64,000 bases of DNA, from the NCBI GenBank assembly GCA_963575645.1, contig OY754466.1, positions 41,138,001 through 41,202,000 on the forward strand, in the 5' to 3' direction. Below the pieces are notes generated by a model. It worked only from the letters and a program-made list of their open reading frames with translations, searched no databases and was not told where the DNA came from. The stretch is from Xanthostigma xanthostigma. Taxonomy: Eukaryota; Arthropoda; Insecta; Raphidioptera; Raphidiidae. Below are positions 1,572-63,789 of the stretch, piece by piece. The first letter of the stretch is position 1. Every line of letters begins with the position of its first letter. Position numbers and translations under genes: made by a program.

Positions 1572-4371
1572 GATGCACTGGTCAAACGTCTCGGACCCAA
1601 TGCATATCCGTTCACGATGGAGATAACGCCGCTAGCGCCTCCAAGCGTTCAACTAGTTCCGGCGAAAGAATATAAAGGCGCTCCAATCGGTACCAGTTAT
1701 GACGTCAGAGCATATATTGGTAAGTCTAGTATGAAATAATTGAATTTAAAAAAAACACGCTTTTATAGCAATTTACACTATAAAGTAAAAAATAATTTTT
1801 AAATATAAAGATTTTTTTCAACAGCGATATGACGTACCCTCAACTCGATATTATTTAATTTTTTAAATAATCCATTCTTATCCTATCGCTCTTAAACAAT
1901 ATCATCGGAGGAGCTGTAATCGTTTTAAGGAGAAGGGAAAGGATTTGAAATGAAAAGAGTAGATATCTTATGCTCCGAATGAAATAATTTTGTGTAAAAA
2001 AAGATTATGGTTATTTTACCATTCCAATCCACAAGTGGGGAAGGGTACTTAATTTACGTCAAAACCCACTTTTGAAAATTTTACAATATTTTTTCGTTTT
2101 GAGGTTCCACGAATCCAAAAAAACGTACTTTTGGAAAAAATCTATGCGTCTGTTTGTGTGTCGGTCAGAGGTCTGTGAGCACGATACAGGTTAAACTTAA
2201 ACGGATGAGCGGATTGAAACCAAATTTTGAGAGGATGGTATGCAAATATGAAGAGCGCTATTGTTTTTGGGAAAAATCGGCGCATGCTACAATGTTGTTT
2301 TTCAATATATAATAATAATGGTATACTTTTCATAACGGGTTATTATTCGCTATTTATTTTTTCAAGAAAGTTAATCTGACACTAAATTGAGGGCTCCAAG
2401 TTTTAGTCCCGATGGAGGAAATTAAATTTTCTTACAAACAATAATTAATTTTTTCACCGACTTCAAAAAAGTGGAGGTTCTCGATGCGGTGTACTTTTTT
2501 ATATGTACGTTCAGCCATAACTTTTCGAGGGGTTAGCCGATTTGAAAAATGTTGACGCCATTTTGTTCAGAATTTTTCCGGATTGGTACCATACGATTTT
2601 CGTTAAATTTTTTTTTCTGAACTTTTAGTTTTGGAAATATTTTGAAAAAATTGTTTTGTGGATCTGTCAGAAATAAACTAGTTAAGCATGCTTTGATTAA
2701 TTATTACGTGACGTGGAACATATTATGTAGGTAACCATGGCAACGAATAGCAAATGTCATATTGAATACTAGTTATTACCCGCGTCACCTCACGCGATAT
2801 CAGAAATTTTATTTTCTTTATTATACTATATCAAAAGTCAACATTTTGAAGTTAGAATGGTCCCGTCGCCCAATTGGTTGGAATTTATTTTTTTATATCG
2901 AGGCCCTTTTTCATATTGAACCTAATTCTTGTATAGTTACGCTACTACAAAAAAAAAAACAGCATATTATTCCACATCGAATGATCAAAACAATTTGTAT
3001 TTAATGTTATTGTTTATTTAACTGTACCACAATAGGTTTTCAGACAGACCACTACATTTGAATGAGCGCGAGGCAAATGAAATTACAAAACAGCACAAGT
3101 ACATCAGTGATGAACTAATTTCGGGCGACAAACGAAGCACGCAAACTTTACAAAATAAAACGTCCCCGTTCTGCCATAGTGACAAATGTTTCCACATAAT
3201 ATATAATCGCATACCGCACTCTATATCTGTACTTACATAAAGGCCGCTGCACACGAGGCTGGATTTGCCGCTAGATTCCTTGAATTAGAATTTATTTATC
3301 CAAAGACATACAATTATGTATAGAATTCGTCAAAAGAAAGATAAATCGTGTTTACATCTCATTAACAACAAAATCATCTACCTTATAGAGACATTGTTTA
3401 AGAAGAGTAGTTTTCAATTCTCTTTTAAATTTCTAAATTTTAAAATTTTTTAAACTGTTTGGCTGCTTTGTCGATAAAAAGCAGTATTTACACTTTTTTA
3501 AGTAATACATTTCTTTTAAATCAATAATTACTGTAATTAATAAAATATAATAAATATTTAATTGAAAACACTGTAGGATAATTATTTTTATATAGGTACC
3601 TATAGTTATAACAGTTTTCAAATGAGCTATTAATTAGATTTATTTAATTTTAATTAGTCGTAAATAAAATTAAAATAAATTTAAATCTTCAGTATAAAGT
3701 AGTGTTGATCCAATAGAATGTTAAGATGAAGGAAGGTTTTGGTTGAGGATCATAAAATAAGCTTTACCAATGTTTCGCTAGTGGCCAACGTTTCGAACAT
3801 ATTGTATCTTACAATTATTGTAAGATACAATATGTTCTAAATTATATACATATATATAGTATATACATGTTCATAGGCCCTGAAGATGAAAATAATTTTT
3901 CGAAACGTTGGCCACTAGCGAAACATTGGTAAAGCTTATTTTATGATCCTCAACCAAAACCTACCTTCATCATAAATTTAAATGTAAGCCTTAAAAGAAA
4001 GTAATGTAGAAAATAAAAAAAAAATTAAAAATATATTCGCCCAACGTGGGGCTCAAACCCACGACCCTGATATTAACAGACGCATTCTCTACCGACTGAG
4101 CCAGCCGGGCTTGTGAATGTGCAACGCTAATATTGGTATATCCAGTTAGGGCATTTCACCTGAATAGAAGCTTATTTTTGAGATACATTTTGCAACATTT
4201 TTCATTGATGCTCCGCTCCTATTGGTCGTAGCGTGATATTATATAGCCTTCCTCGATAAATGAGCTATAATTTTTTTTTTCAATTTGAACCAGTAGTTCC
4301 TGACATTAGCGCGTTCAACCAAAGAAACAAACAAACTTCCGCTTTATAATATATTAGTATATAGATGTACA

Positions 4372-4442
<71 letters not shown>

Positions 4443-7400
4443 CGACATCCCCTGTATATGACCACACTATTTTTATAGTACATAAAGACAGACGAAAGGA
4501 TATTAATTATCCTGTTTTCGCTGTTTCCTGTCTGAATATGCGTGTTTCACAACGTTGCGCACACGAAAATTTTGAATTTGTCAACTATTGCTAATTTGTC
4601 AGAAAAGTAATTGGCCAATTTATTGTTGTATACTGATTGTAACGTTACGCATATAAATAGGTTTAAGCCAACAATTGTAGACTGCCCACCTGTGAATCGA
4701 CCTTTGAGTTTATTGTTGTCATAACAGGTTATTACGTTAATAATAATAGTCCAAGCGGCGGACGTGAAAACCGCTTCCGACTTTATAGAGGATGAAACTT
4801 TCAGAAAAGATAGGACAATTGTCAATCACTTGACGAGGCAATTCTGTGAGAACCAGGGCCGGCGGATAATGTGGGTACAGTGGGTAGTACTACCCACTCA
4901 AAAAATTCCGAGGTACCACAGAATTTCGAGTGGGTAAATTAATATAATGTGGTCATGATTGCCGTAGTAACGCGAAGTAACCTAGTCTTTTAATTAATTT
5001 GCCCTAACGAAGAGTAACACGCCTTAGATTTTCCCATTTAGAATAACGTTGGAAAATCTGAATTGTGCTAACTTTCGTAAGAGGCGTATATATACCACAG
5101 AGATATTAGACTAGAGTACGCGAGTGAGCCGTGAAAGTGTCTGCAATTCAGAGAGAGAACAGTTCATTATCTCTATGGTAACTAATGATACAAAACAATG
5201 CTGATTTGAGTAAACATAATAAGTACATCTGGTTTTCTGGACCAGCTGCAGCGTTCTCTCTCTCAACTGAGGACACTTTCACTTATGGCAAGCATACGAA
5301 CTAGCGAACTCCAGTTACTTATATCTCTATGATATTGTATATGTTACGGTAAATGTGAACTCTTGGGAAATGTACACTTTTACCGTAAAATGTGCCGGAA
5401 AATGTGTACATTTGCCGCAATATCTACATTTAATGTATACATTTTCCGGCACATTTTACGGTAAAAGTGTACATTTCCCAAGAGTTTACATTTATCGTAA
5501 CATATACACACCTTCCCGGCCAACTACCCACTCGGGATGAAAACCATCCGCCGGCCCTGGACTGAGAATCTAACCCGACAGTGGGAAAATACAGTAGAAC
5601 CTCTGTAAGTCGAAAGTTATAGAGTTTTCGACTTATGAAGGATTTCGACTTAGGCGGATGTTGTAAGAAAATATTCGACCTGTCGAGGTTAAGATTCATT
5701 CTAACTAATTTTGAGTTGCTATGTTCGAGATACAGAGATCCAATTTATTTTTTCGGAGTTACGGAGGGAAAATATGTATCGAAATGGATTGTAGGAGCTC
5801 TCTGATTATTTCAATCTATAGAGTATTGAGATTAGGAGTAATTGAGGTTTTGGGCCTCGAAGGGAAGGGAACAAATCATTTTTTCGAGTTTTGGAGGTTT
5901 TCGACTTATCGAGGTTCCACTTAAAGAGGTTCTACTGTACCACTTCCAGTATTCATTTTGGTGTAGTTGGAGTTTTAATTTTTATGAATTTTTCGGTTGG
6001 TAAGAGCTTTTTATGTTGCCGCCTTAAAGAATGATAGAGCATCACAAAGTCATAATAAGGAGAACCAGCTCGAGCGTAGCGGTGGGCCGGTATCTGTCGC
6101 ATGAAATAATATGGCGTCAGCTATACTGGGTAACGTATACACGTTCATGGCTGACATGACGTGTGCAGTATATCTGTGAAGTTAAATAACTTTGGTAACC
6201 ATAGCGAAAACAGGTGAAAAGAACAGAAGTTGTCCCAGGTAGTGATAACAGCGCAATCTCGCGTGCGCCAGAAAACGGTCCATTTCGAAACACAGCAAGC
6301 ATAGGAAGCTAGGTCTCCTGATTAAAGACTTCGTGTAAAGCATAATGGCAATTCAGTTTTTTTATGCTCTTACCAACCAACAAATTTATAAAAATTAAAA
6401 GCTCTAGCTCTATGGGACTAGTAACTAAATCAAAATGACATGTACCCGTGTGAACCAATCACATATCTGATATATGTAGACGCTAATATTATGTTTATTT
6501 TTCTTAAGCTGAACGCGCTGATGAAAAACTGTACAAACGAGCGGCAGTTCGAATGGGTCTTCGCGTCGTGCAAAGAGCCTGCGCACCACCATCTCCGACA
6601 AACTACAATCCAGTAATGGTATCGTTAACGCCCATGCAGCAACAGTCTTTACAGCAGCAAACAAAACCCGGTGCAAAAATAACACTGTTCGGATCGAAGG
6701 GCACTGCGGCCGCTGAAACAAGTGACGAACAAAAGACTGAACCGCAACGCTACAGCGCCACGCCAGAAGCAGCGAAAAGATCGAAAAAAGACGCGAGTTT
6801 TAACGTAGACGAAATAACATATGCCGACGAAGATGATAACAAACTGTCGCCATCGAATCGTAAAATAACGAAAAAGATGGACGTCGAACAGAGTCAGGTA
6901 GAAGAAATGAGAACAAACCAAACGGCGGAGATTGGCATGAGTCCAGAAAACGTTCAACGAAAGAAATCCCTTAAAGAGATAGAGAATATGAATCTTCTAA
7001 CTGGGCAAAAGAGAGGGAATGACCTTCACATGGATGACATCGAACTGCTGAGGGCAACGCTTCCAGCACCGCGCGCAGTCGTTGTCAAAACGTTCATGAT
7101 GAGCGACGGGCAAATCGAATTGGAAGGATCGTTGGATAAAGCCATCTATTCACACGGTGAAGATATCAAAATAACAGTCTCCGTTAATAACAGAAGTCGC
7201 AAAACTGTTAGAAGAATCAAGGTCAGTATCTTATATCCTTTCATAACATATTTATTTATCGACAAATTTAGTCTCTTTTGTATAACATTTAATTACTGAA
7301 TTATTACGTCGAAAAAGGTAAAAGGCAGTAAGTGATCAACTTATGAATTTGAGTAAATCAAGATTTACTAAAAATGTCTTGACCGTCCAGAATTTTAGAT

Positions 7401-8703
7401 TATGGAGACCAAAACATGGGAGAAACATTTTTTAAAGACAATAAAATTATTGCTGCAGCACTTACTGCTGTTGTTGGCTTCAGTATGAACTCATTTTTCA
7501 ACAAATGTCACTTACTGCCCTTTGCCTTTTTAGGGCAGTATTAATATTGATTATAATAGGCTTTTAATCGACATCTTTTTAAGTGGCAGTACAAATTATT
7601 GGTATTAAAATTCAAAAAAGGCTTTTATCATCAACCTTCCCTTAAACAATTAAAATCATATTAGGGCTTACACCTTTAGAAGACTCAAGATCCGGAGATC
7701 ACGGGGGAAAATGCAGCTTAAATAAAACTCAGTATCTTTATACAGTATTTTCCTATTTTTGACTTAACTGGCAATTATCAATTTATTACACTAAAATACT
7801 ATCTCAATTATAGCTTCTACCGTATTTCGTATTATTTGTTATCTATTAATTACAATTTGGTGTTCTGAAATAATACTTACTTATTTACATCAATTAATTC
7901 ATACCATAACTTGACATTTAAAAAGCGTATTTCTGAAGAACTTTCAAGCAATTTTCTTATTCGTCAGGCGAGAGCCTTCACCGCGGCGCCTGAATTTATT
8001 CACGCCTCGCCTGGAACCGCTAGCATAACGGCGATAAACCGGAGCCCGGACATACAATCATCAATATCCGGAGGAGTTGCAGCCTTAGCAGGCACACACA
8101 AGTTCTTAACGATAATTTGAGCAAACCCATGGCATATTTCTTTATTTGTCCAGAGATTGCCTGGGGAAGGCAAGCAATATTAATCACAATTTACGAATTG
8201 GTTTGATGTTTCAGGTGTTCACCGTTCAACACGTTGACGTTTGCATGTTCTCCAACGGGAAGTTCAAAAACGTCGTCGCCAGCATAGATTCCAAAGACGG
8301 TTGTCCACTACATCCGGGTTCAACATTCAAGAAACAGTACGACCTGATCCCAACTAAAGGTCAAACAAAAAACTGGATTGCTCTGGAAGACTCGTACACC
8401 AAAACTGGCACCAGCTTGGCATCGACCGTCAGTCCAAACAGCAACAGCACCGAGGAACGTAACGTGTTCGCGATTTATGTGTCGTACTACGTTAAGATAA
8501 AACTGATTGTCAGCGTCACCACGAGTGAAGTGTCTCTCAAGTTACCGTTCACGTTGATGCATTCGCGAAGTGATTTCGAATCGACACTGATGTCGCGAGA
8601 GTTTTACGAGAGAAAAATTGAAAACGCATCGCCAGCAGCCATAAAATTGTCAGAAAATACAGTAGATTCCAAAGTTATGAACGTCGATAAGGAAAAAACT
8701 TGA
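1572..8703 (+). CDS. Arrestin family protein, 5'-partial (3 exons seen)
   Basis: Arrestins bind activated, phosphorylated GPCRs, block G-protein coupling and often recruit endocytic proteins. Exons seen: 1572-1719 (opens DALVKRLGPNAYPFTMEI, a hallmark arrestin block), 6509-7221 and 8215-8703; all have AG/GT junctions with matching phases (1, then 0). The N-domain strand ending LRVVQ keeps the Arg that aligns with the phosphate-sensing Arg (visual arrestin R175). The C-domain runs from KTFMMSDGQIELEGSLDK through VSYYVKIKLIVSV to LPFTLMHS. Upstream exons for the start of the N-domain are outside the window. Oddities: about 150 residues, rich in charged and polar residues, sit where arrestins have a hinge of roughly a dozen residues. 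The polar-core acids aligning with D296/D303 read Glu and Gly. The frame continues past the TGA at 8701-8703. It is clearly an arrestin, but diverged from Arr1, Arr2 and kurtz; a third insect arrestin class (Drosophila CG32683-like) is a guess to be tested. Confidence 0.93.
2016..2897 (+). repeat. Interspersed repeat, copy 1
   Basis: Shares long blocks with 62709-63310: TTACCATTCCAA, CACAAGTGGGGAA near the left end and GTCGCCCAATTGG near the right end. Class unknown; no ORF of note. Confidence 0.7.
3725..3971. repeat. Foldback element with GAAACGTTGG motif
   Basis: Near-perfect inverted repeat from GATGAAGGAAGG to CTACCTTCATC, with a small AT-rich centre. The inner arms carry CCTGAAGATGA then TTCGAAACGTTGGCC. 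Related to 37481-37698. Confidence 0.8.
3973..4365 (-). mobile_element. Helitron fragment carrying a tRNA-Lys-like module
   Basis: The minus strand begins TCTATATACTAATATA at 4365 between A and T and follows the 22052-22637 Helitron (GAACGCGCTAAT, GGAACTACTGGTTCAAATTG, ATTTATCGAGGAAG). It breaks off at the foldback at 3971, so its 3' third is missing. Confidence 0.7.
4038..4110 (-). ncRNA. tRNA-Lys-like sequence inside Helitron
   Basis: The minus strand reads GCCCGGCTGGCTCAGTCGG ... GGGTTTGAGCCCC ... TTGGGCG, close to insect tRNA-Lys(CTT) with good A and B boxes. The anticodon loop and arm are changed (CTGTTAAT), so it is probably not a working tRNA. Confidence 0.6.
4375..4438. repeat. (CTTT)n/(CT)n microsatellite
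   Basis: Run of CTTT followed by CT, just beyond the 5' end of the Helitron fragment. Confidence 0.9.
5098..5331. mobile_element. hAT-type MITE (AGAGATAT ends), copy 1
   Basis: Same family as 38066-38294, in the opposite direction: AGAGATATTAGACTAGAGTACG at one end and TTACTTATATCTCTATG at the other, with shared inner blocks. Confidence 0.65.
5338..5506. repeat. Palindromic MITE
   Basis: Arms GTTACGGTAAATGTGAACTC and its reverse complement, centred near 5427. It lies within the hAT-like element. Confidence 0.7.
5592..5937. mobile_element. pogo/Tc1-like MITE
   Basis: Ends CAGTAGAACCTCT and AGAGGTTCTACTG are inverted and flanked by TA on both sides. No transposase. Confidence 0.75.
5964..6406. 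mobile_element. TIR element
   Basis: The ends form an inverted repeat of about 45 bp, imperfect, built on TTTTAATTTTTAT and GGTTGGTAAGAGC. It ends about 100 bases before an arrestin exon. Confidence 0.55.
7312..7531. mobile_element. TIR element in arrestin intron
   Basis: AAAAAGG and GGCAGTAAGTG at the left are mirrored by CACTTACTGCC and CCTTTTT-type sequence at the right. Confidence 0.55.
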
Positions 8704-9270
8704 AACGAGGGGGACAATTTTAAACAAACTGTTGTTATCGAAATTAATCGTAGTTATTGTGAGAATAGTAGTAACAAAACTGTGGTACAACCGATAGACG
8801 ACAACAATGTAAATTCGTCAACAAATAACAATGCGTTTGTTATGAAACCTAACGGGAATAAATCTGACGATGTGTTACAGTCGCCCAATCGAAATACTAA
8901 TGCAATTATAAAACCGACTAGCCTTGGAAACGAATTGGTTAACGTCACGCCTGCTGTGTCGCCGAACAGAAGGAACACCGAATGTGAAATAATTATAAAC
9001 CGTGCAACCGGTGCCACGGAATTATTGTCCGATATTCGTAGGAATAGTGAAACGTTCAAAACGAATGCCATTTATACCGAAACTTTCAAACATACCGGCG
9101 GAGAAAAACGCGATTTTGACGAAATTATTATCGAGAAGCGTAGCGAGGTGACGGTTTGTGAAACGGCCGAAAGTGACAAAAAAATCGAAAGTTCCAAAAA
9201 GAAGAGTGCCGAAAAAGGTTTTAGTATACAGAGGGCATGGTGTTGTTTAAGAGGAAGACGAACTTCATAA
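8704..9270 (+). CDS. In-frame open extension of arrestin after a single TGA
   Basis: Directly after the TGA at 8701-8703 the arrestin frame stays open for 188 codons to a TAA at 9268-9270. The peptide is low-complexity and hydrophilic, rich in Asn, Thr, Ser, Lys and Glu, and ends in a Cys-Cys and basic tail (CCLRGRRTS). That length without a stop in such AT-rich DNA is very unlikely by chance. No good donor lies just before the TGA, so splicing around it is not obvious. Possible readings are translational readthrough (TGA followed by A), a recent nonsense change in this allele, a sequencing error, or an unseen splice form. It could instead be 3' UTR. Confidence 0.6.
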   Translation, partial: NEGDNFKQTVVIEINRSYCENSSNKTVVQPIDDNNVNSSTNNNAFVMKPNGNKSDDVLQSPNRNTNAIIKPTSLGNELVNVTPAVSPNRRNTECEIIINRATGATELLSDIRRNSETFKTNAIYTETFKHTGGEKRDFDEIIIEKRSEVTVCETAESDKKIESSKKKSAEKGFSIQRAWCCLRGRRTS

Positions 9271-9552
9271 CATACTGTCAGAAAAATATAAATGTGTTTT
9301 TTTTTTCACGACGCGACTTTTTAAAGTTGTACAAACTTATACTGCGCGTCCGACCAAAGAACGTCTGTGCGGAAAGAGTGCTAGAATTATGTGAACAAAA
9401 GGTGGAGAAAGTGTTCTCGCGTAGTCGTTGATGCGCTTTCGACAAAGGGAAAGCTTTTGTTGTAAACAATGTTTTATTTATATAGATAGATATTTATTAA
9501 CATTTACGATTCTATTTTACATAAAATCACGCAAATCTTTATAAAAAAATCT

Positions 9553-9599
9553 CGTCAACTACAAACTCGGTCGTTAACTGACCAAACTTGTAGTTGACG
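9553..9599 (+). promoter_or_regulatory. Stem-loop in likely arrestin 3' UTR
   Basis: CGTCAACTACAA at 9553-9564 pairs perfectly with TTGTAGTTGACG at 9588-9599. An inner GGTC/GACC pair could extend the helix. It lies about 280 bases after the second stop. Function unknown. Confidence 0.5.
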
Positions 9600-10403
9600 G
9601 GATTTGTTATAGATATTATCATATTTGCGTCGTAACGTCACTGGCAATTCACTTAAATATACATCAATGAATCAATCCCTACATTGAGACAGCTAGATAT
9701 TGCATAAGAAACGCTCTAAGGTGTCATTTAAATATATATAGGTATATCTGGGTTACTGGAATGTCCCAATGTGACAGGAGCGTTTTATATAACTCAATAT
9801 ATTAGCTACAAATCGTTAGTTTTCATGGCGCTTTCCCTAAATAAAGGACCCTATGCACACTCTTTTACTGGACGTTCTTTGGTTGGCCGGATAATATCTG
9901 GCAATTATTCAGCACCTCTCTGAACTAAGCATTAATATTTAATTCCTCGATATCAATATTTTAGCATTACCTATTCTGTAAAAAATATTGAAAAATACTA
10001 AAAAAAATTACCGATTGTAAATACCAGTCAAAGTGTGCCTAACTGAGATTAGTAATTAAAAAAAGTACTGAAATTTCACCTGTACATTCAAAATATTATT
10101 ATAAAACAATTAATATATAAGACCGTTTAATTAAAATCTTTAAATAGTCGAAGAGCTATTGGCCTCGATAACGTACCCACCCATTTCTACACAGCTGGAA
10201 ATATGCAAAAGTGTAAGTTTGGATTTCCTTAAAGAAAGAAAGGCCGGTATGGCTCAAGGACATAGGTGAAATAACCCTTGAATTTTTAAAAATGGAGAAA
10301 AAATGCAAAATGTGTCGTTTTTACGAAGCTCCTTACATTAATAATTGCTACTTAATTGCCATAATGTTTGTTGATGAATACTACCTGTTATACTAGGTCA
10401 AAG

Positions 10404-10602
10404 CAGCCCCGGATCTACGATAATGGCGCCCCCTTTCTCCAGCATTTGAGATAAATTACTTAAAAGAACTGGTTAGCATTTTTCGTAAACGGGGCAAGAA
10501 CTCTTTAGCACTCTTTATTATCTATTACCATATTATATTATGATTTTGGCGCCCTCTGAGACTGCCACCCGGGGCGGTTTGTCCCCCCTCGATCCGGGAC
10601 TG
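10404..10602. mobile_element. hAT-like MITE (199 bp)
   Basis: Ends CAGCCCCGGATC and GATCCGGGACTG, flanked by GGTCAAAG and GGTAAAAG (7 of 8 match). Confidence 0.75.
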
Positions 10603-11160
10603 GGTAAAAGGTTGCTGTTTAGGGGTGAAATCCACTTATTTCTACAAGGCTGAAAATTGACCAGTATCTTCGAAAAAAACGGCCATATGCAAAGAGCCAT
10701 ACCGACTGGGCGGTATTGGGGTTCCGTACCACTAAATTGAATTGGCTGAGTGGGAGAAAGAGGGCGCTATGCAGCCCCGCGCGTGCGAGAGAGCATTAAA
10801 GGCAGCTCCGCAGCGAGCGTAGTATTAAATCCACAACCACGTTATATTTTTTAGCAACCTATTATATTTTTATACAATCTATGTAATATGTTAAGACACA
10901 TCTGGAATCAACAATCTTACTTCATATTTAAATTCGAACTTTCGTAATATTTCTCATATTACGAAAATTTCATTGGCAAAATTATTAAAGCACGCGAACT
11001 TTTTTAATCTAATTCATTTCGTATAATATAGAACAAATCAATATTAAAATTTTTATGGTAATCTTTGTATATGCTACCGTTAAAACCCGAATCAATGAGT
11101 TTTTTTACAGATTTTGGGTTTTGAGGATAACATATATAAATATTAATAGATACTATAGAC

Positions 11161-11480
11161 CAGGGGCGGGCAAATCTTTTGATCGGCGGGCCACATAGCT
11201 GATGAAAATTTGACCGCGGGCCGAATGGCTGACGAAAATTTCACCGCGGGCCAAAAATTTGCAGAAAAAAAGATCCTTACATTTTATTTCCGCATTCGGA
11301 GAGCAAAAAAAAAAAAAGGTCCTCACATTCTATTTTCGCATGTGGAGACCAAAAAAGAAAAGGTCCCCGCATTCTATTTTCGCTACTATTTTTCTAAAAT
11401 TTTCTAAAATGCTTCGCGGGCCGGATAAGATTGCGCTGCGGGCCGGAACCGGCCCGCGGGCCGCCATTTGCCCAGGCCTG
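11161..11480. mobile_element. hAT-like MITE (320 bp)
   Basis: Ends CAGGGGCGGGCAAAT and ATTTGCCCAGGCCTG, flanked by CTATAGAC and TTATAGAC (7 of 8). Inside are direct repeats built on GCGGGCC and TTCGCA-rich units. Confidence 0.75.
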
Positions 11481-12037
11481 TTATAGACGATATATTTTTA
11501 TTTTAGTTATCTAATTGAAAATTGTAAAGATTATTATTTTTTATATCTAAAATGAGTAGCAGCCATCACGCACTAAAAATGTTTTCTAGACGAGCCTGAA
11601 TTTAGCTAATCAGGGCCTATGTACTTTCATTGATAAATCCAAAACAATATATTCAAATATGATTTTAATTTATATTTCAAAAGTCAAACAGTGCAACTCT
11701 TTTACAACGATTACGGTTACTGCGAATTGATGTCTAAAACGAACCATTTTCAACGAATGAATTTGGTTTATGCATGAGTACAGTAATGCGTTGATTATCC
11801 GGCTGAGCACATTCGATATTGCATAAAGACCGCTCGAGGCTGGTTTTGCCGCTAGATTCGCTGCTGTGATGCTGGATTTTGTGACGGTTTGTATGTATTG
11901 ACTTCACAGAATATGTGATTTGAAGCTAGATGTCGAATGTAAACAAAAATTGACAAAACGCGATTATACCAAAAAGTTATTCGTCGAAAACCAACAGCGA
12001 TTATTGCGTATAAATTGTCACAATTAATGAAAAAAAC

Positions 12038-27935: not shown

Positions 27936-30900
27936 CTAATCATTTTCTTCTTCCCAATCAAGTTCGTCACCCCAACCGCTTTCTTCATGTTTTGCTACAT
28001 CTTCATTTATACTCAAATTAAAAGAAACGGTTTTAAATTCAATTTCATCTAATCTTTGATTTTCATCATTTTCAGTGATTAAAAATTTATTGGTACTTTC
28101 GATAACCGGTTCCATATCTTGAAAGAAATCAACTTCATCGCTGTTTTTGTTTTGTTTAATATTTTTTTGGTTTTTTATATCTAATTCTAAAATGTCTGGT
28201 AATGAATTCGTTTTATTTTGCAGTACAGAAGAGTGTAAACTTGGTCTGTTAATATTAGTCAAATCTAATTCGATTGTATTTAAATTATCCACACTCGTAA
28301 TAGTGTCAATTTCAGAATTATAATTATTCACAGCAAAATCCAAATCTGAATGATCTATAATCGGACTGTCTGTATCTACAAGTAACGTGTTAAAATTTTC
28401 CATAACATCAATTTGTTGTCTACCAGATCCAGATTCATCTGCGATCCCTTCCTGAATATCCCAATCGGACCAATTATCTAAATCATCATCGATAGATTGT
28501 TCGACTTCTTCGTTTGTAGAGACATTGTCTTCTCCACCATCTGGACTGGGTCTTTCCGGTAAATCTATTATATGCTCTGACTCTTGATTTATAAATGAGG
28601 ACGACGGAGCTTCTTCGTTTTCTTGTGTCGGTAGTTCTCTCACCACAGGCAAAGTCGGTACTGAAGAGCTGCGCCTAGACGAACGTTTCGACACTTTACG
28701 GTTTATATGCGCCATCGGCCTACCGTCGGTAAAAAGTTTAGCACGTTTGCCGCCAATTACGGTGGCAGCGCCTAAGACTGGAACTAAATCTGCTAATGAA
28801 CGTAACGTTGTGGCGACTAAATGATCATTTGTATCTTTAATACCCAATAACAACTGAAATGTATTCATAACAAATTATTAATCACTATTAAAAAATATTT
28901 AACGTTATTTTAGTACTTTATTGTCCATTTCCCATAGCATAGGTATCTGTGTTATATACAGATTGTATCAAATCAAAACAGTCCATAGAATATTCTGTGT
29001 GTAAGACAGAGACGATATTATATAAAGGACTAAAGCAGTAAGTAAGAATGAGATAAATGATCGCTAATAGTTACTGTGGTTATACAATCTGATAGTATCG
29101 TCTTTGTTTTCTACAGTAAAAATCACAATTTTATCAAATGTCAGTATTCACTAGTGAAATTATTGATAAAATGGCTATTTAATATACTGTTCGAGAAAAA
29201 ATCCAAATAATTAAATGGTTTTATGGTGGTTATTCAACCGCCAACATAATAAATTTATTTGTAGTTGTTTTAATTGATAAATTAGTAAATAGATTTACAG
29301 TGTACGTAATTATTTATTTACGTAACTACAGTAACTATATTAGCGATCATTTATCTCATTCTTACTTACTGCTTTAGATCTTTATATATCATCTCTCTCT
29401 TACACACAGAATGTCCTATGGACCGTTTTGATTTGATACAATCTGTATAGTGACACGTTATACAGTATGTAAACGCGTAAGGTGCACATAGGGAAATTAG
29501 CATTGGGAAAAAATACTTGGATCAGAGTTAGCCATGACTGCATTAATTGTTATTTCTATTGAATTATCGTGGTAATCTTGTGGATTTCTATTTTATTTTG
29601 ATTTATTTTTATTTTACTTGGCTTTTTTAACAATAAAAAGCTCTTATAAATCATTATTTTAATTTTTTTTTGTACAAAAATAAAACAAAAAAACAACTCC
29701 ATCTGTTTGGAAACATTTCATTCAAAAATTGTCTGACTGGTATTACGTATGCGCGTTGGTAATTCAGTGACCCAATGTCTTTAGGTTCTACTCGAATAGG
29801 CGGAGATATTTGATCTCGCACCATATTTAAGTATTTGTTGGGAATTTAAGCCCCATTAATAAAAAAAGTCCGATTATGTTGTAATCATTTGAATATTTTC
29901 TTCAGAAGTATACACATTCATTTTGCAAAAGAATATTATCTGTCAAATTGAAAAACAAGATTTCAAGGCTCACTCTGATCCAGTCATTTTTTCCTAATGT
30001 TAATTTCCCTATGTGCACCTTACGTGTTTACATACTGTATATGTTACCGTAAATAGCCAAAATACGTTTTTACCCATACTTACTAGTAAGAATGAGAAGT
30101 ATTTGCGAGCATTTGTAATATCTTACTAGAAAAGACACGAAATAAATTTTTTATTCGGCTTTCAGTTAGAACTACACGCATTACAGGAGGTAACCGAAAT
30201 GCATATCTTTTAACGAGCGGACATGCTTCCATAGCTCACACCTATATTATTTAACGGACACAAATGACGCCGGATTTTGAAACAATATTCGCGTTCGCGA
30301 AGGTCAAAAAATTCATATTCGTCACATCACTAATACAGATACCTACGCCATATTATCCAGGAAATGGCACTAATTCACATACCTCTGGCAAAATGTGATT
30401 CTGTAATTCATCTGACGAAAAACAATGAATGAAATACTTGAAATGAGTTAACAGCAAAAGTCTTATTTGAGCATCACGTACTCTAAATATTTGCAATAAT
30501 TTTGGTACTAAACATATTTTATACGTATTTACGCTAAATAAATACGGTGATACTTCATTTTCTTTTGTTTCTAAAAATGATTATAATAAAATTATTTTTT
30601 TGTTCAATTGCAGTGTTAATAATCAAAAATCACGTTACTTTAAAAGAAACGGGACACCTACAAGACATTATATTTTTTCTGTAGATTATAGATGCTTGAC
30701 AGCTTTAGCGTTTTTGTTACATCAAACAACATTATGGCTACGGAGAAAATGGGTGACTCGGTGCAGAGCTGAAAATTTGCAGAATAATAGGAGATAGCAT
30801 AAGTAGGGAAAAAATTACCAGACGGCTAGGCGGAAGATAAAGAGCCGCCAGAAGGCGCTAATGTTGCGAAAAATCAGTGCACTTCTGGCAATTTCTATAC

Positions 30901-33900
30901 TTATTCTGTAATTCAAAACTAGATTATATATTATATATATATTATACATTATATAGTTATAAGGGCATACTGAAAATTCAAACATGATATAATAATTACA
31001 TTTGACAAATATTCAAAATTATTAATGACATTTTGATAGAAATAAAATTAAATAAATTAATAAAATTACGTTGTTATAACAACGTAATTTTATTAATGAA
31101 AATATATGACGATTAATTTTATTTCTATCAAAATGTCATTAATAATTTTGAATATTTGTCGAATGTAATTATTATATCATGTTTGAATTTTCAGTATGCC
31201 CTTATAACTATATAATGTATAATATAATATATAATCTAGTTTTGAATTACAGAATAAGTATAGAAAGAAGAGCACTGATTTTTCGCAACATTAGCGCCTT
31301 CTGGCGGCTCTTTATCTTCCGCCTAGCCTTCTGGCAATTTTTTCCCTACTTACTTGTACTATCTCTTATTATTCTGCAAATTTTCAGCTCTGCACCGAGT
31401 CACCCATTTTCTCCGTAGCCAGCTCTCCGTCTATTACACAGAGACTACATATGGACTACATAGGGAGTAAGAAACAATAATGGTCACTAGTAGCAAAATT
31501 AAAATGGCGTCAGTACAAAATGGAAATTAGCGACGCTAGTGGTAAAAAAATAAAACGTAATATGTACGATTTAGTGGGCAGATTCTGTCAACGTGTCCCG
31601 AATGAGTTTGTGCTCCTTGGTATAGTCTCCATGCAACATCAATTAAAATTGAACATTCATGAGCGAGGTGGTATTCAAGGGCACAGCAGATCGACTCAAA
31701 GGCTAACAAGAAGCTGTCCTCCGTACAAAACTAAATACTGACAATATTTGTTCAATTCTTTTGATGACAAACGTTTCAAAACGAATTGTGCTTACTTCAG
31801 AAATATAAAAAAAAAGGTTGCGTGTGACTCTAGCGCGTTAGAAGTGAAACTTCTTGGGTTCTAGTATTTGTTGATGATTTTATTATTTCAGGATTAAAGC
31901 AATGGTTATGTGAAAGTTACTGTAGCTAAAAAAAATGCTACATATATATTATACACGCAGTATGCACTGCGCATGACGCTTTGACAGAGACAGAGTACAT
32001 CAATTGCTCATTGAAGTTGGAAAGCGTCTGATCAAGGTCAATTTCTACCGCGCCTAAAAAAGTTTCACTTCAATAAAATATTATATTGTTATTATTTTGC
32101 CTTGCATCCCGTTTCTCTGGAAGTAAATAAACTTCAAATAAAATTAAAACTTGCCTTCTTTGGGCCGTAATATAAATGGTAAAACCTCTTTTTGCGCTGT
32201 CTCATCGAGTAACACCATTCTCGATAACAGTAAACTGCCAAATTGTCTAGCGACTACATTTTCTGAAAATTTCTTTAACTTTTCAAGTAGCGTAGAAAAG
32301 AATTCAGATTTTTCACACTCCGCTTTTAATGGCAATTCGTTCAAAAACGAATGGATTAATATAAAATCGTGTGTAAAAAATGGGTGTTCTAACACCGATG
32401 ATAAATTTGGACGTTTCTGAATATCGATATTCTGTAATTCGTTTTTACAGAAATCACGGAAACTCTGAAGACTAGGCAAATCACCTGAAAAAAAGAGACT
32501 ATGTATTTTACACTACACACTATAGAAGTTAAGCTGGTACAATTGTATAAAAAAAAAACAAAAAAAAAAAAATAATATTGACAGCCATCGCCAAGGTTGA
32601 ACCTGTGACCTTTAGGTTACAAAGCAAGTGTTGTACCACGTCGCCAGCCTTTGCTTAATGTTCTACAGCCGGTTTTTATAGTATATGGTATACTGCGACA
32701 CGGTCGTTACATTTTCAATTTCAAGAATCAACTTTACTGTGTCAAGTTTCATTAAAAAACACCTGATAAAATACGGCAACTTAAGGTAGTACGAGCACCA
32801 AGGCAACTATAAATAAAAATCTTGATTTTTATTTTAATATTTCGGTAGATGGATGATACGTTTTCATTTATTTCTCCAAAACTAGTCGGTGGAAATTAAA
32901 AAAAAAAAAACTATTTAAATTAAAGTTAAAACCTTAATAAATTATTGAAAACAAAAAAAACCCGTTGTGCCCGACTAATTAAAAAGATATTTAATCTTAG
33001 TCCACCGACTAGTTTTGGAGAAATCAATGAAAACATATCACCCATCTACCGTTTTACCATAAAGCCAATGTTAAATATGCCTACTTTTGAAGTCATTTAT
33101 TTATTTAAATAATCGGGCAACCCCCCTAAAATTTTCAGAATTGGTTGACTTAGTCCAACTACATATAAAAAAAAATCAAGCCTTTTATTTAAAATTGCCT
33201 TGGTGCTCGTACTACCTTAACTGGGAACTATAGATTTTGATGAATTTTTTGAAAAAATTCAACTAACACCAAAAACATATCTCAAATAGATCCTGACTTT
33301 AAGATCCTGAAAATACCGATACTAAAATATTGATACCTGGTCTGAAGCCTTACAGTATTGATTAAAGGATCAAATGGCCAATTTATCATTATAAGCAATA
33401 GTAACAAAATGAAAATATGAAGCCGTTCTACATCCAGATAGGCCTGTCAATTAATGATTTTAGATAAACAAAAAAAAAAAACGATTTGACTCACTGTCAC
33501 TTTTCTTTCGTAAAACTTCTCCGGCTAAGATTCCGAACGCATATTGATCAATAGCACCCGAGTTAAGTAGCCCGTTCTGAGCATGCTGATCTTCATTACT
33601 ATCGATAGCTTTTTCATATCTATGATTCCTAGTTTTCGATAAGTAGCTTGCATTTATGTCTTCTAATTTACATAAGTATTCTAAGCCGCCCAATTTCCAG
33701 CCGCCATCGGCAGATACGTAAATCGATGCCGTACAAACATTATTATGTGAAGCCAATGCTTTATTGTTAAGAAACACGAGTGCTTTCAATATTGAATGTA
33801 AGCCGATGCATAGCTGTAAAGTTGACTGTTTTGTTAAATGATGAGAAAGAGGTTGAACACTTTCGACAGCCAAATAAAATTTTGAACCCTTATTCCACGA

Positions 33901-35147
33901 TGAAATATATTTTAATATGCAAGGATGTCTGTGCAACATTAAATTCTGAAACAAAATTCATTTATTATTAATAGAGCTGTAAAAGTAACGAGAAATTGTG
34001 TACCCGTATGTATTCGTTACTTAAAGAACCAGTACCCGTTACTTTCGTATCGTTACGTTACTCGGTACTTTTGATACGACATACAAATATAGTGTATTAA
34101 CAGCATCAAGCAATAAGCATGTAGCTTCGCACCAAAGCGCGTCGCATATGTGATAGGACATGAGTCATGACTTCGTACTTTATGACTACTTATAACTCAT
34201 ATAAGTATAACACATTGTGTTCGTATAACCGTATCAAACGAATCAAACTGACATGGATACGAAACATGCGAGTAACGAAATGAATTTGTAAGTAACGATT
34301 CGTTACTTCGAGTCAGACGATGTACCCGTTACTCAGTAACGAATATATACGGTTTGTTACAGCTCTAATTATTAATCCTCGGCTTCGTAAGTCAACTAAA
34401 GGTATGGACCGATACATGGACATTTAACCGAGTAATCAGTTACGTTAGAGTATTTGATTGCAAGGCCGAGTAATAAAAAAACCGAAGTCCTCAAAAAATT
34501 CAAAGTAAATTAAATATTCATTATAGAACTATTGATATTTTATAACATAGCATAAGTGAAATGAATTACATTTACCAATTCAGTTCAAGTTAAGAACCTG
34601 TGTTCTAGACCGTCAAATGCTGATCGTTAACTTTCTCTTCCAAATTTGTATAATGTGGTAATTTAAATGAACATGTTTATCACGTACAAATAAGATGACA
34701 AAGTCCGTTTGCAATTCCATCATTTTTACCCCAACGATTGAGAATATTAAATAATTTTAACATACACAAGGATATACGAAAACGTCGTATTCACTAATAT
34801 TTAATTTCAACAGTTATCCCACAGTTTAATCTAATGTTGATGATGAAAGAAATTAATTAACTTTAAAAAGACATTAAAGGATATTACATGAATTAATAGT
34901 TGCAATAAACTAAAAACGTACCGTTGTGGACAATAATTAATTAAGTACCCACCTTGGAAGCTTTTTCTAAAGGTGTTTGATTTACCCATAATGTACCACC
35001 AATCAAAGGTTCTCCGATAAATACAGTCAATTCAGAAACACTTTCTGAATTATTAACAACAGCAGTATGATGGGTCCAAAAATCAGTTACCTCGACAGCT
35101 TTTTCATCAATCTCTAGCCCTGACAGCTGAGAAGTTTCATTGCCCAT
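27936..35147 (-). CDS. SCYL3: SCYL3 (PACE-1)-like pseudokinase
   Basis: SCY1-like pseudokinase with a HEAT-repeat region; vertebrate SCYL3 is found at Golgi and cell edge and binds ezrin. Exons in gene order: 34953-35147, 33495-33945, 32155-32484, 30383-30570, 27936-28853; 2082 nt, 693 residues, close to human isoforms (688-742). The start MGNETSQLSG carries the N-myristoylation Gly seen in human MGSENS. Kinase-like part: HRHPCIL, then HNNVC where active kinases have HRD, and KLGGLE in place of DFG, so catalysis is not expected. HEAT part: PNLSSVLEHPFF, EFFSTLLEKL and, from exon 4, VPKLLQIFRVRDAQIRLLLL; exon 5 opens LLLGIKDTNDHLVATTLRSL. The acidic C-terminus ends WGDELDWEEEND, like human ELNWEDNNW. 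Exon 3 ends in a GC donor (AAG|GCAAGT, 32154-32149); exon phases fit only this choice. Introns hold several MITEs and a 690-bp palindrome. Confidence 0.94.
28959..29445. mobile_element. Tc1/mariner-like MITE (487 bp)
   Basis: CAGATTGTATCAAATCAAAA is mirrored at the right, with TA on both sides. TIR of more than 100 bp. SCYL3 intron 4. Confidence 0.8.
29463..30038. mobile_element. Tc1/mariner-like MITE, copy 1 (576 bp)
   Basis: TIR CAGTATGTAAACGCGTAAGG and onward for about 75 bp, TA flanks, 17 bases from the previous MITE. Its twin is 38647-39219. Confidence 0.85.
30736..31421. repeat. Large palindrome (about 690 bp)
   Basis: Two arms of about 340 bp meet at GTTGTTATAACAAC near 31077. Outer ends GGCTACGGAGAAAATGGG and CCCATTTTCTCCGTAGCC. 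Arms differ at a few bases and one small gap. SCYL3 intron 3. Confidence 0.85.
31515..31630. repeat. Repeat shared with 48130-48250
   Basis: Shared blocks include GCTAGTGGT, TATGTACGATTT and GTGGGCAGATT. Class unknown. Confidence 0.5.
32588..32650 (-). ncRNA. tRNA-like SINE head
   Basis: The minus strand reads GGCTGGCGACGTGGTACAAC ... GGTCACAGGTTCAACC, with A- and B-box-like parts. It starts just upstream of SCYL3 exon 3 in its intron; probably a SINE remnant. Confidence 0.45.
32781..33220. mobile_element. TIR MITE with TTAA ends (440 bp)
   Basis: TTAAGGTAGTACGAGCACC at the left and its reverse complement at the right. TTAA could be a piggyBac-type duplication or part of the TIR. Confidence 0.7.
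33972..34367. mobile_element. hAT-like MITE (396 bp)
   Basis: Ends TAGAGCTGTAA and TTACAGCTCTA, with a perfect 8-bp duplication ATTATTAA (33964-33971, 34368-34375). SCYL3 intron 1. Confidence 0.85.
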
Positions 35148-50020: not shown

Positions 50021-53000
50021 TTACGACAGATGGAACGAATGCTGGCCCTCGCTAGCCGCTACGCGCAGTTTTTCCCGCATCACTTCTATACTCGTGTAAT
50101 CCGGAAGCTTAAGGTAGTTGACACAAGTCATCACAGATGGCAAATAATCGTCTGGATTCATATTCGGTTCGAGTGTCTTCCGTACGATTGTTAACGGTGG
50201 GGATAAAGCTCTGAAGCCTGAAACAAAATTTATAGAATGTGGTTAGCGAGAGTTTCATATTTAATTTAACAAAAAATTGGATGTATGACAAATTATCAGA
50301 TAGGAGCGAAAGACATTGCTGATTCGATATCACAGTGTTCAAATGAACTATAAATTCATCATTTCAAAATAAATCATTTCGGTGCTTTTCTAAAAATGGA
50401 ATGTATACTGAGAAATATTTCTTACGACCATGACATCTGGTGGCAATAATTAGAAGTAGAGAAGTCGGGCTTAGCTGTGACAAGTAACATTTGCAGTTAT
50501 TTAAATCAAAGTTAAACAATTGTTTTAACTATGGAAATTGACGTTTCTAAAAGATTACAAATTTTAAGTTTATTAAATGTTTGTTAATATCTCATTGTAA
50601 GATTATTTGTTCAACTATTATAAGCAACATCTGTCAAAATGTAGCCTGCCTAAAGCCGCCATTTTGGTTTGTGACGTCATGAATAACTTTCCCAATAATA
50701 CCAATCCAAGAGCACGGTTAACTTATAAAATAATATGTTGCGCAACTGAGCGACATTGCAAATATTTTGTGGAAAAAAAAGTCTTACCTCCGACTGGCAA
50801 TCGAGGCGACCCAGTAACAAACTGGACAAATAATCGCTGCTCTTCTTTGTTGTAGCTACTTAAAATTTCAAACAGACACCTAATAGCCCTTGAATCGGCA
50901 GTATAACCGTGATCGGGTCTACAACATTCCATTAAAGTTCTAACGTCCCAGCCAGCATCTGAAGATTGTGAACTGCCACAAAACACGGCTTCCAATTCTT
51001 CAGGATAGAACATTTTCAATTGCCGAAGCGGGAAAACAGATTCGAAACCTTCACGCAAAGCGTCCATTTGTCTAGTAACACCTTCGACCAAGAACCAATA
51101 GCTGACAAGACGTAAATATTCGTCTAGATTATGGATCGTCACCGGAGTATCTCGTCCGCCGCGCCTTAATTCCACTTGGGAATGACCTGGTAAAATGAAA
51201 TCCAAGCCAAGATCGGCTACGGGGCAGCCGTCTATAGCTAGCAGTTCGACTTGTTCGGTTCTTTCTTCGGCTGTTAAATTTGGATTAGTCGCAATCAGGT
51301 CTCTTTGATGAATTAATGGCTGAAGCTGCCTCAATGTGTTATGAACTTCCGGAGCTACGTATTCTAAGTCTTGTAATGATAAATTTCCTTCTTGTCCTAA
51401 TAGCCAACGATGAAATGCTACTGAGAAAGGCAAATCGAGCTAGAAACAAAAAAAAATCGGTTAACGATTCGTAAAAAAAAATATAATTACAAAAAGAAAG
51501 ATCTAATTACCATTCTTGAGTCCATTACAGCTTTGGCCATAAATTTTCCAAGGAATCTAAATTTAGCTTTAACTTTACTTAATTGTGATACTTTTGTCGG
51601 TCTTCCTAGAGGAGCAGGGAATAGTCCTTTCGGACAATGAACGTACGCGTTCCCTTCTTCGGTCGACGTTCCTTTCCACAGATCCAAATCGGTTCGTTGA
51701 AGTTCTCTCGACACGAGGGCGTAAAATTCTAACGTCGGACCTAACCCCGTACCGACTTCGTTTTCATACTGGACTTCGAGCAACGCCTTCGAACCGGCCA
51801 AATCTTGAATGACTTGTTCCGCTTGACGCAATATATCATCGCGCGATATCGTTCGCTTGCGCCGATCTAGCCGCGGCGTGACGCGTTCTTGCGAATCGGC
51901 CGAGCTCAGTTCCGGAGCTGAGTCCAACAGTCTTTGAAGAGCGCGGTCACGATCGAATGACGTTGCGTAAAACAGTAGCTGCCGCGTTTCGAACGGAAAC
52001 AGGAATGGACTGCAAAATTAACCATTAATAAGGTTCGAAATTAAATTCTAAACCAAAACGTTTTTAAGGTTATACGCCCGATAGAGCAATGTATAGATAA
52101 TACGCTGAAATTTTAATATGTTAATTATGGATATCTCATACATTCAACTGCATTTTTTAAAAAACATTGACCGTCTAGTTTTCAAGTTATTAATTATTAA
52201 AAATGCGATTTTTAGCACAATGATATATGAGAAGACTGACCGGAAGTGTATATAAAAATAAGATTAAACCAAATTGGCTATAGACAAATTTTTAAAAAAC
52301 TGATTATTCGAAAGTTTGACTCATTTAGATACCGTAAAAATTAAAAAAACTATACTTTTCCGTGCAGTTTTGGAGAAATATTAATTAAAAATTTTCGAAA
52401 CAATTCTCAAAATCTCTATTTTCTAGATTTGAATTATGTCACCATGAAAACCAGATTACACGAAAAGTTTTTCATAAATTTTGTTTTTATTGAATAATTT
52501 TTTTGACGTAGCTAATAACTAAAACTTGAAAATTGGATATTAGCTCATTTACCGTGTATTAAAAACTGCATTTAGTATCCAATAACTCAAAAACTATACG
52601 TCTAACGGTTCAAAGGTTTTTAAAATCAAAACGTAAGATAAAATCATTCGTGTACACTGGGCTTAATTAAATATACTGCTTAAGTCACAACTTTATGATA
52701 TTATGTCAAATGTTTAAATATTATTTCTTAAATATTAAAAAATAAAGCTATAATCAACAGGATATAATATTTCCATAAGAAATAATAAATTTACCAAGTC
52801 ATATAACATTTTTTTGTTACAACAAAATACGGACGCAGTTTTTACTAATACGGTCGAGAGCGTATAAGCTTAAGTGCTTCACTAAGTTTAAAATAAAATA
52901 AACACTTACCAAGCTAAAGCTATTTGCGACAACCATGACGGCAAATTTCCCGTCATAATCACGAGGGGATCTTGTAATTGTCGACTGGCCTTTGCAGCTA

Positions 53001-56000
53001 ATTTACTATTGATAAAATCGCTTTGCGGGAGAATATTTTTCTGTGACTGGCCTTCGTAAAGCGACGACCAATATCGATTTAGTGCGTTCAATATACGTAG
53101 CAGACATAATACTTCTAGCGATGCATCCTGTACGGTCACCGAATCTGGCAAGCGAGTAACTAGGAACGGTATTATCGGCGACTGGAACTGCGGCACCTGG
53201 CCCTCTGTGTAGCGGAACAAAACATTTATCAGTATCGCAACAATGTATATTTTGCCTTTACCGCCGCTAAATAGCAACATTACGACAAAACTCGAAAACT
53301 CGTAAATCGGAAATATTGATTCTTTTCAAAATTTAATAAAGCAAAAGCATTTTATACGAAACTGCACTAAGATATGCACGAATTTGGGTAGCTATAGAAT
53401 TCAAATCCAGAAACTTTAATAGAATACGACTTCGAGCGCCCATGGTGGCAAAAAACGGAACATTTGGATGCACTTAAAACGTTGACAGATTATATTTTGA
53501 GTGAAAAGTTTTTTTTTTTAAATAAGTACTAGATATTTAAATTAAGGAGGTTGATGCGTTACAGTCCCAATCAAAAGTAGGGTCGAATTCTAAATGCGAA
53601 TTTTTCCATAATAAGTTTTTACAAAAGGTTGCAAGTCGATGATATCAATAAATTATTGTCATAAAGGCATAAATAAATATTTTTTTTAATATTAATTATT
53701 TCAGTATTTTACTTAATGGACTAACTTTTAAATTTTTTGTACAAAGTTAGGTTAGAAAAAATAAATTTATGTAAATATCTGTATTTTACATATTTTTTGC
53801 AGTAAATAATTAAAAAAAGAAATTAAAAGTAATAAAAATTAAAATTAAATCATTAAAAAGTTGAAAATTCAGTTAAAATTGTCAAGAATAAAAATCCATA
53901 ATCGAAAAGTGCTATGGTTTAATAATTTTTTTTATTGATTAAGTCTCCTAATTAAATTGGAAAAAATAACAAAATATGCGTAAGACATCGATGCTTTACA
54001 TAGTTAGTTTTCGGAACTGCTGACATTATTTGGTTATTTGCAAAAAATTAAAATGTACCGTTTAACTTTATAAATCTCCTAATGATTTTGGATTTTTTAC
54101 AGAAGATTTTGTCATAAAAAAATCTATTAAAAAAAAACTTTATTTCAGATTTTTTTCTTTATCTTCATAAAACGGCTCAACCTCCTTAACGTAAAAACAC
54201 GGTTAAAAACACACTTCTACATATTATTTTTTTAAATTGGTGGTGTTGGCATAGAAAATACATGAGTTCCACTGTGTTAGACCCCAGTACATCGTGGTTA
54301 GCTTATATTCCGATTTGTGTGTTTTTCCTATGATTATTACAATTATTAAAAAAACAAATGAAAACAGTATGAATATTTTTGACAATCGTGGCAGTATTTT
54401 AACTGGCTTATGTTCAAGACGAAAGCGTAATCAGCAGTTAATTTAGAAGATAGAGCAATATCTGATAAAAACTAAAACCAAATGTCATTGCATATATTTA
54501 CATGTTTGAAACCAATTGAAGTCAAAAGTGAATCATAGCTGTTTACCTAATAGCAAAATTACTTTGAACTCACAAAGCGTTATATTATTCCGATAAAGGA
54601 AATCATTAAAAACTCTAAATTTTTTCCAAATTATTTAGACCAAAAAAAAAACGGCGCAAATAAGAAATTTGGACTCAAATAAAAATTTCGCTTAATATGT
54701 TATAAGTAATTTTGGGTACACTGTGCATTGTTTTCGATAAAAGTGCAGGGTTAACTTCGTATTTTCTACAAATTTAGTGGCAAAACCAGAAATAGCGTTT
54801 TTGAGTAATTTGAAAAAAGTTGTACATCCATAGTTTCAAAAAGCTTCTGTAATTCAGTTAAGTATATTTAAAACATTCCTTTTCAGCATTTTATGCAGCT
54901 GTAAGGACACTCCCAAAAATTTTTTTATTATTCAACAGAACTGAATTTTTATCTTCACTATATCAGAAAGAATAATTATCATTTCTACAAACTTTAAGAA
55001 ATAGCACAGTTAAGTTGGCAGTCCCATCGAAAACAAAACAAAATGTACAAGTGGATCCGGCACGTACCGTTCCATAAGTCATCTCCTTTCCGCCTGTGAT
55101 TTGACTTACTGCTCGTCCCTTTACCTTTCCGCCCCGAACCGCTACTCGTGCCGACTGACGATTTACTACACGAAGCGTCCTCCGTCAACGGTCTGTAATA
55201 GATAGTATGCGTCTGTACCCAAACGCCGGCGTTCCCCAAAGGCGCTTCCGTGTCCGTATCCGTCTCAGACTGATCGTTACCCGAAGCGCTGAACTGACGC
55301 ACCGCTTGGTACACGGTCATGTTATACGGAAGCACTTGATTTCCGATCAAAAACTGTAATTTGTGTTTCGATCCGCCCTGCGAAATAACAACGGCCGCCA
55401 AAGTGTCGTCGATATCTTCGTCGGAATTATCGTCGTCCGAATCGCCCGAATCTTTATCTCTGAGACGCCCGTAGCCTCTCACGACCAAATACCTCTCAAT
55501 CGCCTGTACTAACGCCAACGGATCTATTTTAACGGTGCCTCCTTTCCACTGTTTCAAGTTGTTACAGTCCGGATGACGCTGTAAGTTACACTTTAACTGG
55601 TGCGTATTGAAAAACTTCAAAGCACTGGTGCTGCCGCGGCCGGAACCGGCGGGTAAATCGTGCACTTTGACCGGAAACTGTTCTAACTGTGACACGCAAC
55701 CGTTCAATTTCATCACCAACGCGTACATTTGCGACGAGTTGATCTCGAAATGTTTGGCCGGATGTTTGTCGATCGGTAAACTGGTGAACACGTGCAAAAA
55801 TATTCTCAATCGAATATCTCTGTCGACTACACCCTCGACGTCGGCCAAATAACTTAAAAGTGATTTGATGAGCCCGGAATGATTCACTTCGAACGGCGAG
55901 ATATCGGATTCGATCAAAATATCTCGAAGTTCTTGAAGCGCTTGTAACCCGTGAGGCGTTTGTAACTTATCGATGGCCGACTTTAATCTCGACAATACGT

Positions 56001-63728: not shown

Positions 63729-63789
63729 TGAAATAATTAGGCGTGCATATCATTCTGAAACCTGCACACCCATTTTGATATTATTGATA

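Follow-up and report, generated by a model that had tools for sequence, protein, structure and literature searches.

The arrestin gene described here, from the snakefly Xanthostigma xanthostigma, runs into an in-frame TGA beyond which the same frame stays open for a further 188 codons, and the question is whether this first stop codon really marks the end of the protein. The features of the locus are listed in Table 1, in which positions refer to the window, that is, the whole 64-kb stretch of DNA that was analysed. When exons A to D were joined, one open frame of 488 codons was obtained that ended at the TGA. Exons A and B together matched Pfam Arrestin_N positions 46-129 (E 5.5e-9, above the cut-off), and in the spliced protein Arrestin_C was matched over positions 1-136 with an E value of 2.4e-18, likewise above the cut-off, at residues 287-444 of 488. 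Exon D also matched the beta-arrestin-2 chain 8j9k_C (E 4.1e-15). Judged from its sequence, the gene is of the beta-arrestin type, with Arrestin N and C domains in a single spliced frame. The search did not recover the exon or exons 5' of exon A that would encode roughly the first 50 to 60 residues; when an N-terminus of about 55 residues is assumed in addition to the 488 spliced codons, the protein up to the TGA is approximately 545 aa long. All four exons found were unbroken and showed no sign of decay.

Table 1. Features of the arrestin locus and the evidence for each
Feature	Position	Strand	Evidence
Arrestin exon A	-14649 to -14532 (upstream of the window)	+	Splices in frame with exon B
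Arrestin exon B, end of the N-domain (DALVKRLGPNAYPFTMEITPLAPPSVQ...YDVRAYI)	1572..1719	+	tblastn with arrestin locus L011 of the same genome, 51% identity; in-frame splicing
Arrestin exon C, region between the two domains, insert of about 150 residues and start of Arrestin_C	6509..7221	+	Pfam Arrestin_C positions 1-43, E 1.4e-7; in-frame splicing
Arrestin exon D, remaining Arrestin_C, then 44 residues to the TGA	8215..8700	+	Pfam Arrestin_C positions 44-136, E 2.9e-6
First stop, TGA	8701..8703	+	Sequence; context ACT TGA AAC, 3' base A
In-frame extension of 188 codons (second ORF), hydrophilic, ending in AWCCLRGRRTS	8704..9267	+	Open frame, chance estimate, periodicity and discriminator
Second stop, TAA	9268..9270	+	Sequence; frame-0 score non-coding past the TAA
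Probable 3' UTR beyond the TAA	9271..9860	+	Frame-0 scores -1.83, -3.47 and -3.45 (9271-9828); AATAAA poly(A) signal at 9840

The original prediction was that the arrestin frame ends at the TGA, stays open as far as 9270 and would thereby add a hydrophilic tail with the C-terminus CCLRGRRTS. Both points were borne out by the translation, in which 188 sense codons precede the TAA, the span of 8701-9270 counting both stops; SEVTVCETAESDK is a peptide of this tail. Across the tail there was no stop codon in frame 0, while the other two forward frames contained 8 and 23. The probability of 188 open codons was 1.6e-6 to 2.7e-5 per stop codon when calculated from the triplet frequencies of the tail, the UTR, an intron or the window, with codons treated as independent. 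With some 15,000 genes assumed, this corresponds to 0.02 to 0.4 chance cases per genome, so that the length of the frame is not conclusive by itself and the coding tests matter. Among the stop-to-stop frames listed for the 64-kb window, seven were at least 188 aa long, the tail frame included; the other six were two arrestin exons and four frames that on visual inspection we took for exons of other genes. The tail was single copy, with one match in the 623-Mb genome, where no paralogue was found at E<=1. Pfam gave no family above the cut-off for the tail and only a phage family below it (E 0.13), and no relative could be confirmed in genome contigs, where two scans gave 119 and 32 candidate stretches, or in viral contigs, which gave 14.

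The RNY statistic, a measure of in-frame purine/pyrimidine periodicity, was for the tail 0.34 over 8704-8889, 0.32 for 8890-9078 and 0.24 for 9079-9267, values that were reached by 0, 0 and 0.5% of 20,000 non-coding segments, respectively. None of 211 open non-coding segments of 62 codons reached the value of the first or the second third. In the first 20 codons past the TGA (8704-8763) the statistic was 0.45, which was equalled by 0.46% of 20,000 non-coding segments. The tail also exceeded 102 kinase segments (mean 0.08, 95% quantile 0.19) and the arrestin exons (0.09, 0.14), and its high values must therefore be due partly to an unusual amino-acid make-up. A discriminator based on 35 coding stretches of the snakefly's own genome (342 coding segments among 1,458, with stops removed from the non-coding set) reached an AUC of 0.97 in grouped cross-validation. 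It gave +2.07 for the first third of the tail in frame 0 and -3.25 and -1.83 in the other frames. The middle third was doubtful, with -0.24, a value reached by 7.4% of non-coding segments, and +0.02 in frame 1. For the last third frame 0 scored +2.72 and frame 1 nearly as much, 2.64. Past the TAA (9271-9828) frame 0 was non-coding, with scores of -1.8 to -3.5. The second ORF thus looks to carry a protein-coding signature that sets in directly past the TGA and does not continue beyond the TAA, the middle third alone being doubtful.

We also applied a codon score whose training set consisted mostly of kinase domains (29 of 30 kinase loci were used, L040 being dropped for two internal stops); a ZAD zinc-finger exon was dropped from this and later comparisons. 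The tail scored 0.022 bits per codon, which 0.52% of 5,000 non-coding segments reached, and it lay below 28 of the 29 kinase loci and below five of six other window exons. In sliding windows the score was negative for starts at 8668-8848; it stayed low across about 8668-8890 and turned positive across about 8893-9250. Near the TGA this score counts against a uniformly coding tail, and it places the weak part of the tail elsewhere than the discriminator does. Since the first third is Asn-rich, unlike a kinase domain, the kinase-trained score was given less weight there. Synonymous choice in the tail amounted to 0.018 bits, compared with expectations of -0.073 for non-coding and +0.077 for coding sequence (fractions of 0.0035 and 0.0475, respectively, 2,000 draws each). 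The earlier statement that codon use is like that of a gene consequently holds for position-specific composition, which was coding-like, but synonymous choice was just intermediate. Intermediate coding scores have been described for readthrough regions (PMC5100048). GC3 was 0.547 in exon D versus 0.383 in the tail (Fisher p 0.003), but it was already down to 0.42 in the 50 codons leading up to the TGA; in three exon stretches, apparently of one other gene in the window, it was 0.35, 0.46 and 0.56.

Functional stop-codon readthrough is the best single explanation of the TGA and the coding-like tail, and we give it an even chance of being correct. The TGA would then be a true but leaky stop, at which most ribosomes would terminate (at 8703) and yield an arrestin with a short tail, while a minority would insert an amino acid and continue to the TAA at 9268, yielding a form longer by 189 residues. 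The C-terminal tail added in this way would be hydrophilic and probably disordered, and it would add interaction or localisation signals. We infer both that readthrough occurs and that it has been selected. The base 3' of the TGA is A (TGA-A), and the favoured readthrough context is TGA-C. Folding around and after the TGA revealed no unusual RNA structure (z -0.79, 0.68, 0.02 and 0.66). The motif CAGCAGCA, reported as enriched in fly readthrough regions, was absent from the 250 nt before the TGA and from the tail. Readthrough would require nothing out of the ordinary in an insect, but neither the TGA-A context nor the folding result marks this particular TGA as leaky.

The earlier statement that readthrough is known for hundreds of insect genes, mostly with TGA, agrees with the report of abundant readthrough in many insects, again mostly at TGA (PMC5100048). 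The same study estimates approximately 900 functional readthrough stops in D. melanogaster; its test on a single genome, said by the authors to detect fewer than a quarter of these stops, subtracts 17 recent nonsense substitutions in the fruit fly. These figures favour readthrough, though by a smaller margin than a bare 900 to 17. The advantage is cut further because fly extensions have a median of about 20 residues, although they range up to several hundred and tend to disorder (PMC4999894), and because abundant readthrough was not seen in Tribolium and Apis (PMC5100048). With readthrough genes described in Drosophila and Anopheles (Jungreis et al. 2016, PMC5100048; Dunn et al. 2013, PMC3840789) the snakefly arrestin shares the TGA as first stop, a coding-like second ORF in frame 0, a multi-exon gene with long introns and an intermediate coding signature. 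It differs from them in having TGA-A instead of TGA-C, no 3' structure and an unusually long extension, and in being known from a single genome. Readthrough is a known mechanism in insects and perhaps new for an arrestin. No report of arrestin readthrough, including that of CG32683, was found in the titles and abstract openings searched. In PMC9624432 the term searched for appeared in the reference list, and the word arrestin did not occur in the main text of PMC5100048, PMC3840789, PMC4999894 and PMC13170385. Arrestins determine the signalling duration of many receptors. If readthrough is the true explanation, a single leaky codon would help to control receptor desensitisation in this snakefly, and the tail would be a long addition to the list of insect readthrough regions.

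The strongest competing account is that the long protein is the ancestral, ordinary form and that the TGA either arose recently by a nonsense mutation, polymorphic in the sequenced individual or fixed only a short time ago, or comes from an error in the assembly; the tail would then not yet have decayed. We consider this possible, though on balance doubtful. It would explain a coding-like tail without the need for a leaky context or RNA structure, and GC3 in the stretch of 50 codons leading up to the TGA is near that of the tail. Long relatives are on record too, and these may lack any such stop: the Drosophila arrestin branch NP_727419 has 804 aa (PMC2699828), and the mosquito hybrid annotation AALB008255 has about 718 aa after our subtraction of 656 aa of HSP70 (PMC5057407), against the length given above for the snakefly protein up to the TGA. 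This extra length could equally be a larger insert, and it would suit readthrough as well as a recent nonsense change. Such a change must be young, however, the frame being expected, under assumed rates, to survive with a probability of 0.52 after 1% neutral divergence and of 0.04 after 5%. The GC3 of the tail below that of exon D, together with the intermediate synonymous use, also speaks against it, if weakly, the other window gene itself spanning 0.35-0.56. If the TGA is nevertheless a young nonsense allele, it would be a natural arrestin truncation. The prediction of readthrough is partly supported, in so far as the tail looks coding from its first codon, the signal ends at the second stop and no credible bypass by splicing or SECIS was found; the same single-genome data would also fit a TGA of recent origin or one due to misassembly.

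A small intron that removes the TGA from some or all transcripts, leaving the tail or its later part as an ordinary spliced exon, is improbable. Splice sites were scored with a generic, hand-entered weight matrix, on which the gene's own acceptors scored 0.38 to 4.42; two of the 29 AG sites in the tail fell within that range, those before 8970 (1.69) and 9042 (1.93). GT sites of the same phase were present upstream of the TGA, and the dip of the kinase-trained score near the TGA would suit an intron. Against this, the best of 24 GT sites in 8401-8702 scored -0.63, whereas the gene's three donors scored 3.95 to 4.95, and the best sum of a same-phase donor and acceptor was -1.5 compared with 4.3, 5.4 and 8.0 for its three introns. 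Moreover, the would-be intron was periodic in frame (its RNY being reached by 0.46% of 20,000 segments for 8704-8763 and by 0 of 20,000 for 8704-8880), its longest pyrimidine run was 4 in 8704-8889, and the TGA was its only in-frame stop. The weakness of the donors speaks against a splice bypass of the TGA, though the two acceptors past 8890 are fair. Separate translation of the tail, from another transcript or from a downstream start such as the in-frame ATG available in its first third, is very improbable, coding-like periodicity being present already in the first 20 codons past the TGA, upstream of that ATG. We rate just as low the decoding of the TGA as selenocysteine or its A-to-I editing to TGG. 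The genome does contain a tRNA-Sec (79.6 bits, anticodon tca, G000:C4:17402049-17402134) and thus shares with selenoprotein systems both this tRNA and an in-frame TGA. Rfam holds SECIS families, but when 6000-12000 was searched at E<=1 the single match was to the microRNA family MIR774 (E 0.42); neither this search nor a crude SECIS scan of 9271-10500 yielded a SECIS, and selenocysteine was rejected for this reason. Editing requires a duplex, of which folding showed none, and a 5' G is disfavoured in A-to-I editing. Finally, an open frame arisen by chance would suit a tail with no relative in Pfam, in its own genome or in the bacterial/archaeal and viral contigs, but it is contradicted by the open-frame probability, the RNY periodicity and the discriminator, and is scarcely credible.

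If readthrough does occur, the most likely use of the tail, by analogy with what has been proposed for fly extensions (PMC4999894), would be to provide extra binding motifs. Exon D and the tail contained no match to a clathrin box, an AP2 motif, a CaaX box or a K-K/R-x-K/R nuclear signal. The Cys pair near the C-terminus, on which the idea of a soluble and a lipid-anchored form is based, lies beside basic residues and could conceivably be palmitoylated. A fuller scheme, in which one gene would supply two arrestins at a set ratio through readthrough, a short soluble one and one with a disordered tail of 189 residues tethered to the membrane by its basic Cys-Cys end, with desensitisation tuned at termination, is a long shot. 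The protein shares the Arrestin N and C domains with the beta-arrestins (arrestin-2/-3) and Kurtz, but differs from them in the large insert of exon C and in that neither exon D nor the tail matched a canonical clathrin box or AP2 motif. We presume CG32683 and NP_727419 to be one Drosophila gene and the snakefly arrestin to be its orthologue. NP_727419 branches before Arr1, Arr2 and Kurtz (PMC2699828), and CG32683 is an arrestin in the conserved hygrosensory-neuron profile of two flies (PMC13123972).

Several other elements were observed in the window and in the genome. A very stable hairpin (z -9.3) was located at 9520-9630, in the probable 3' UTR of the arrestin gene. The stretch 9500-9640 had 49 matching pieces in the genome, two of them at its own place and several places being counted for both arms. 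Given these matches, the hairpin was rejected as a SECIS element or regulator; it is probably a dispersed inverted-repeat (MITE-like) element. Two more inverted-repeat-like stretches were noted by eye upstream of exon C, at about 5355-5500 and 5590-5945. On the minus strand, long frames at 27936-33957 and 50723-63736 appeared by eye to encode a kinase-like protein of the SCYL type and a HECT ubiquitin ligase similar to TRIP12, respectively. Elsewhere in the genome there were eight weaker tRNA-Sec-like matches, with 42.9 to 46.2 bits. Six tandem short stretches at G000:C6:22626052-22630895 matched the same myosin-head positions (about 377-445), and they presumably belong to a muscle myosin gene as mutually exclusive exons. 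The insect origin of the genome is supported by 78 matches, at the level of exons, to 7tm_6, an insect-specific family of odorant receptors.
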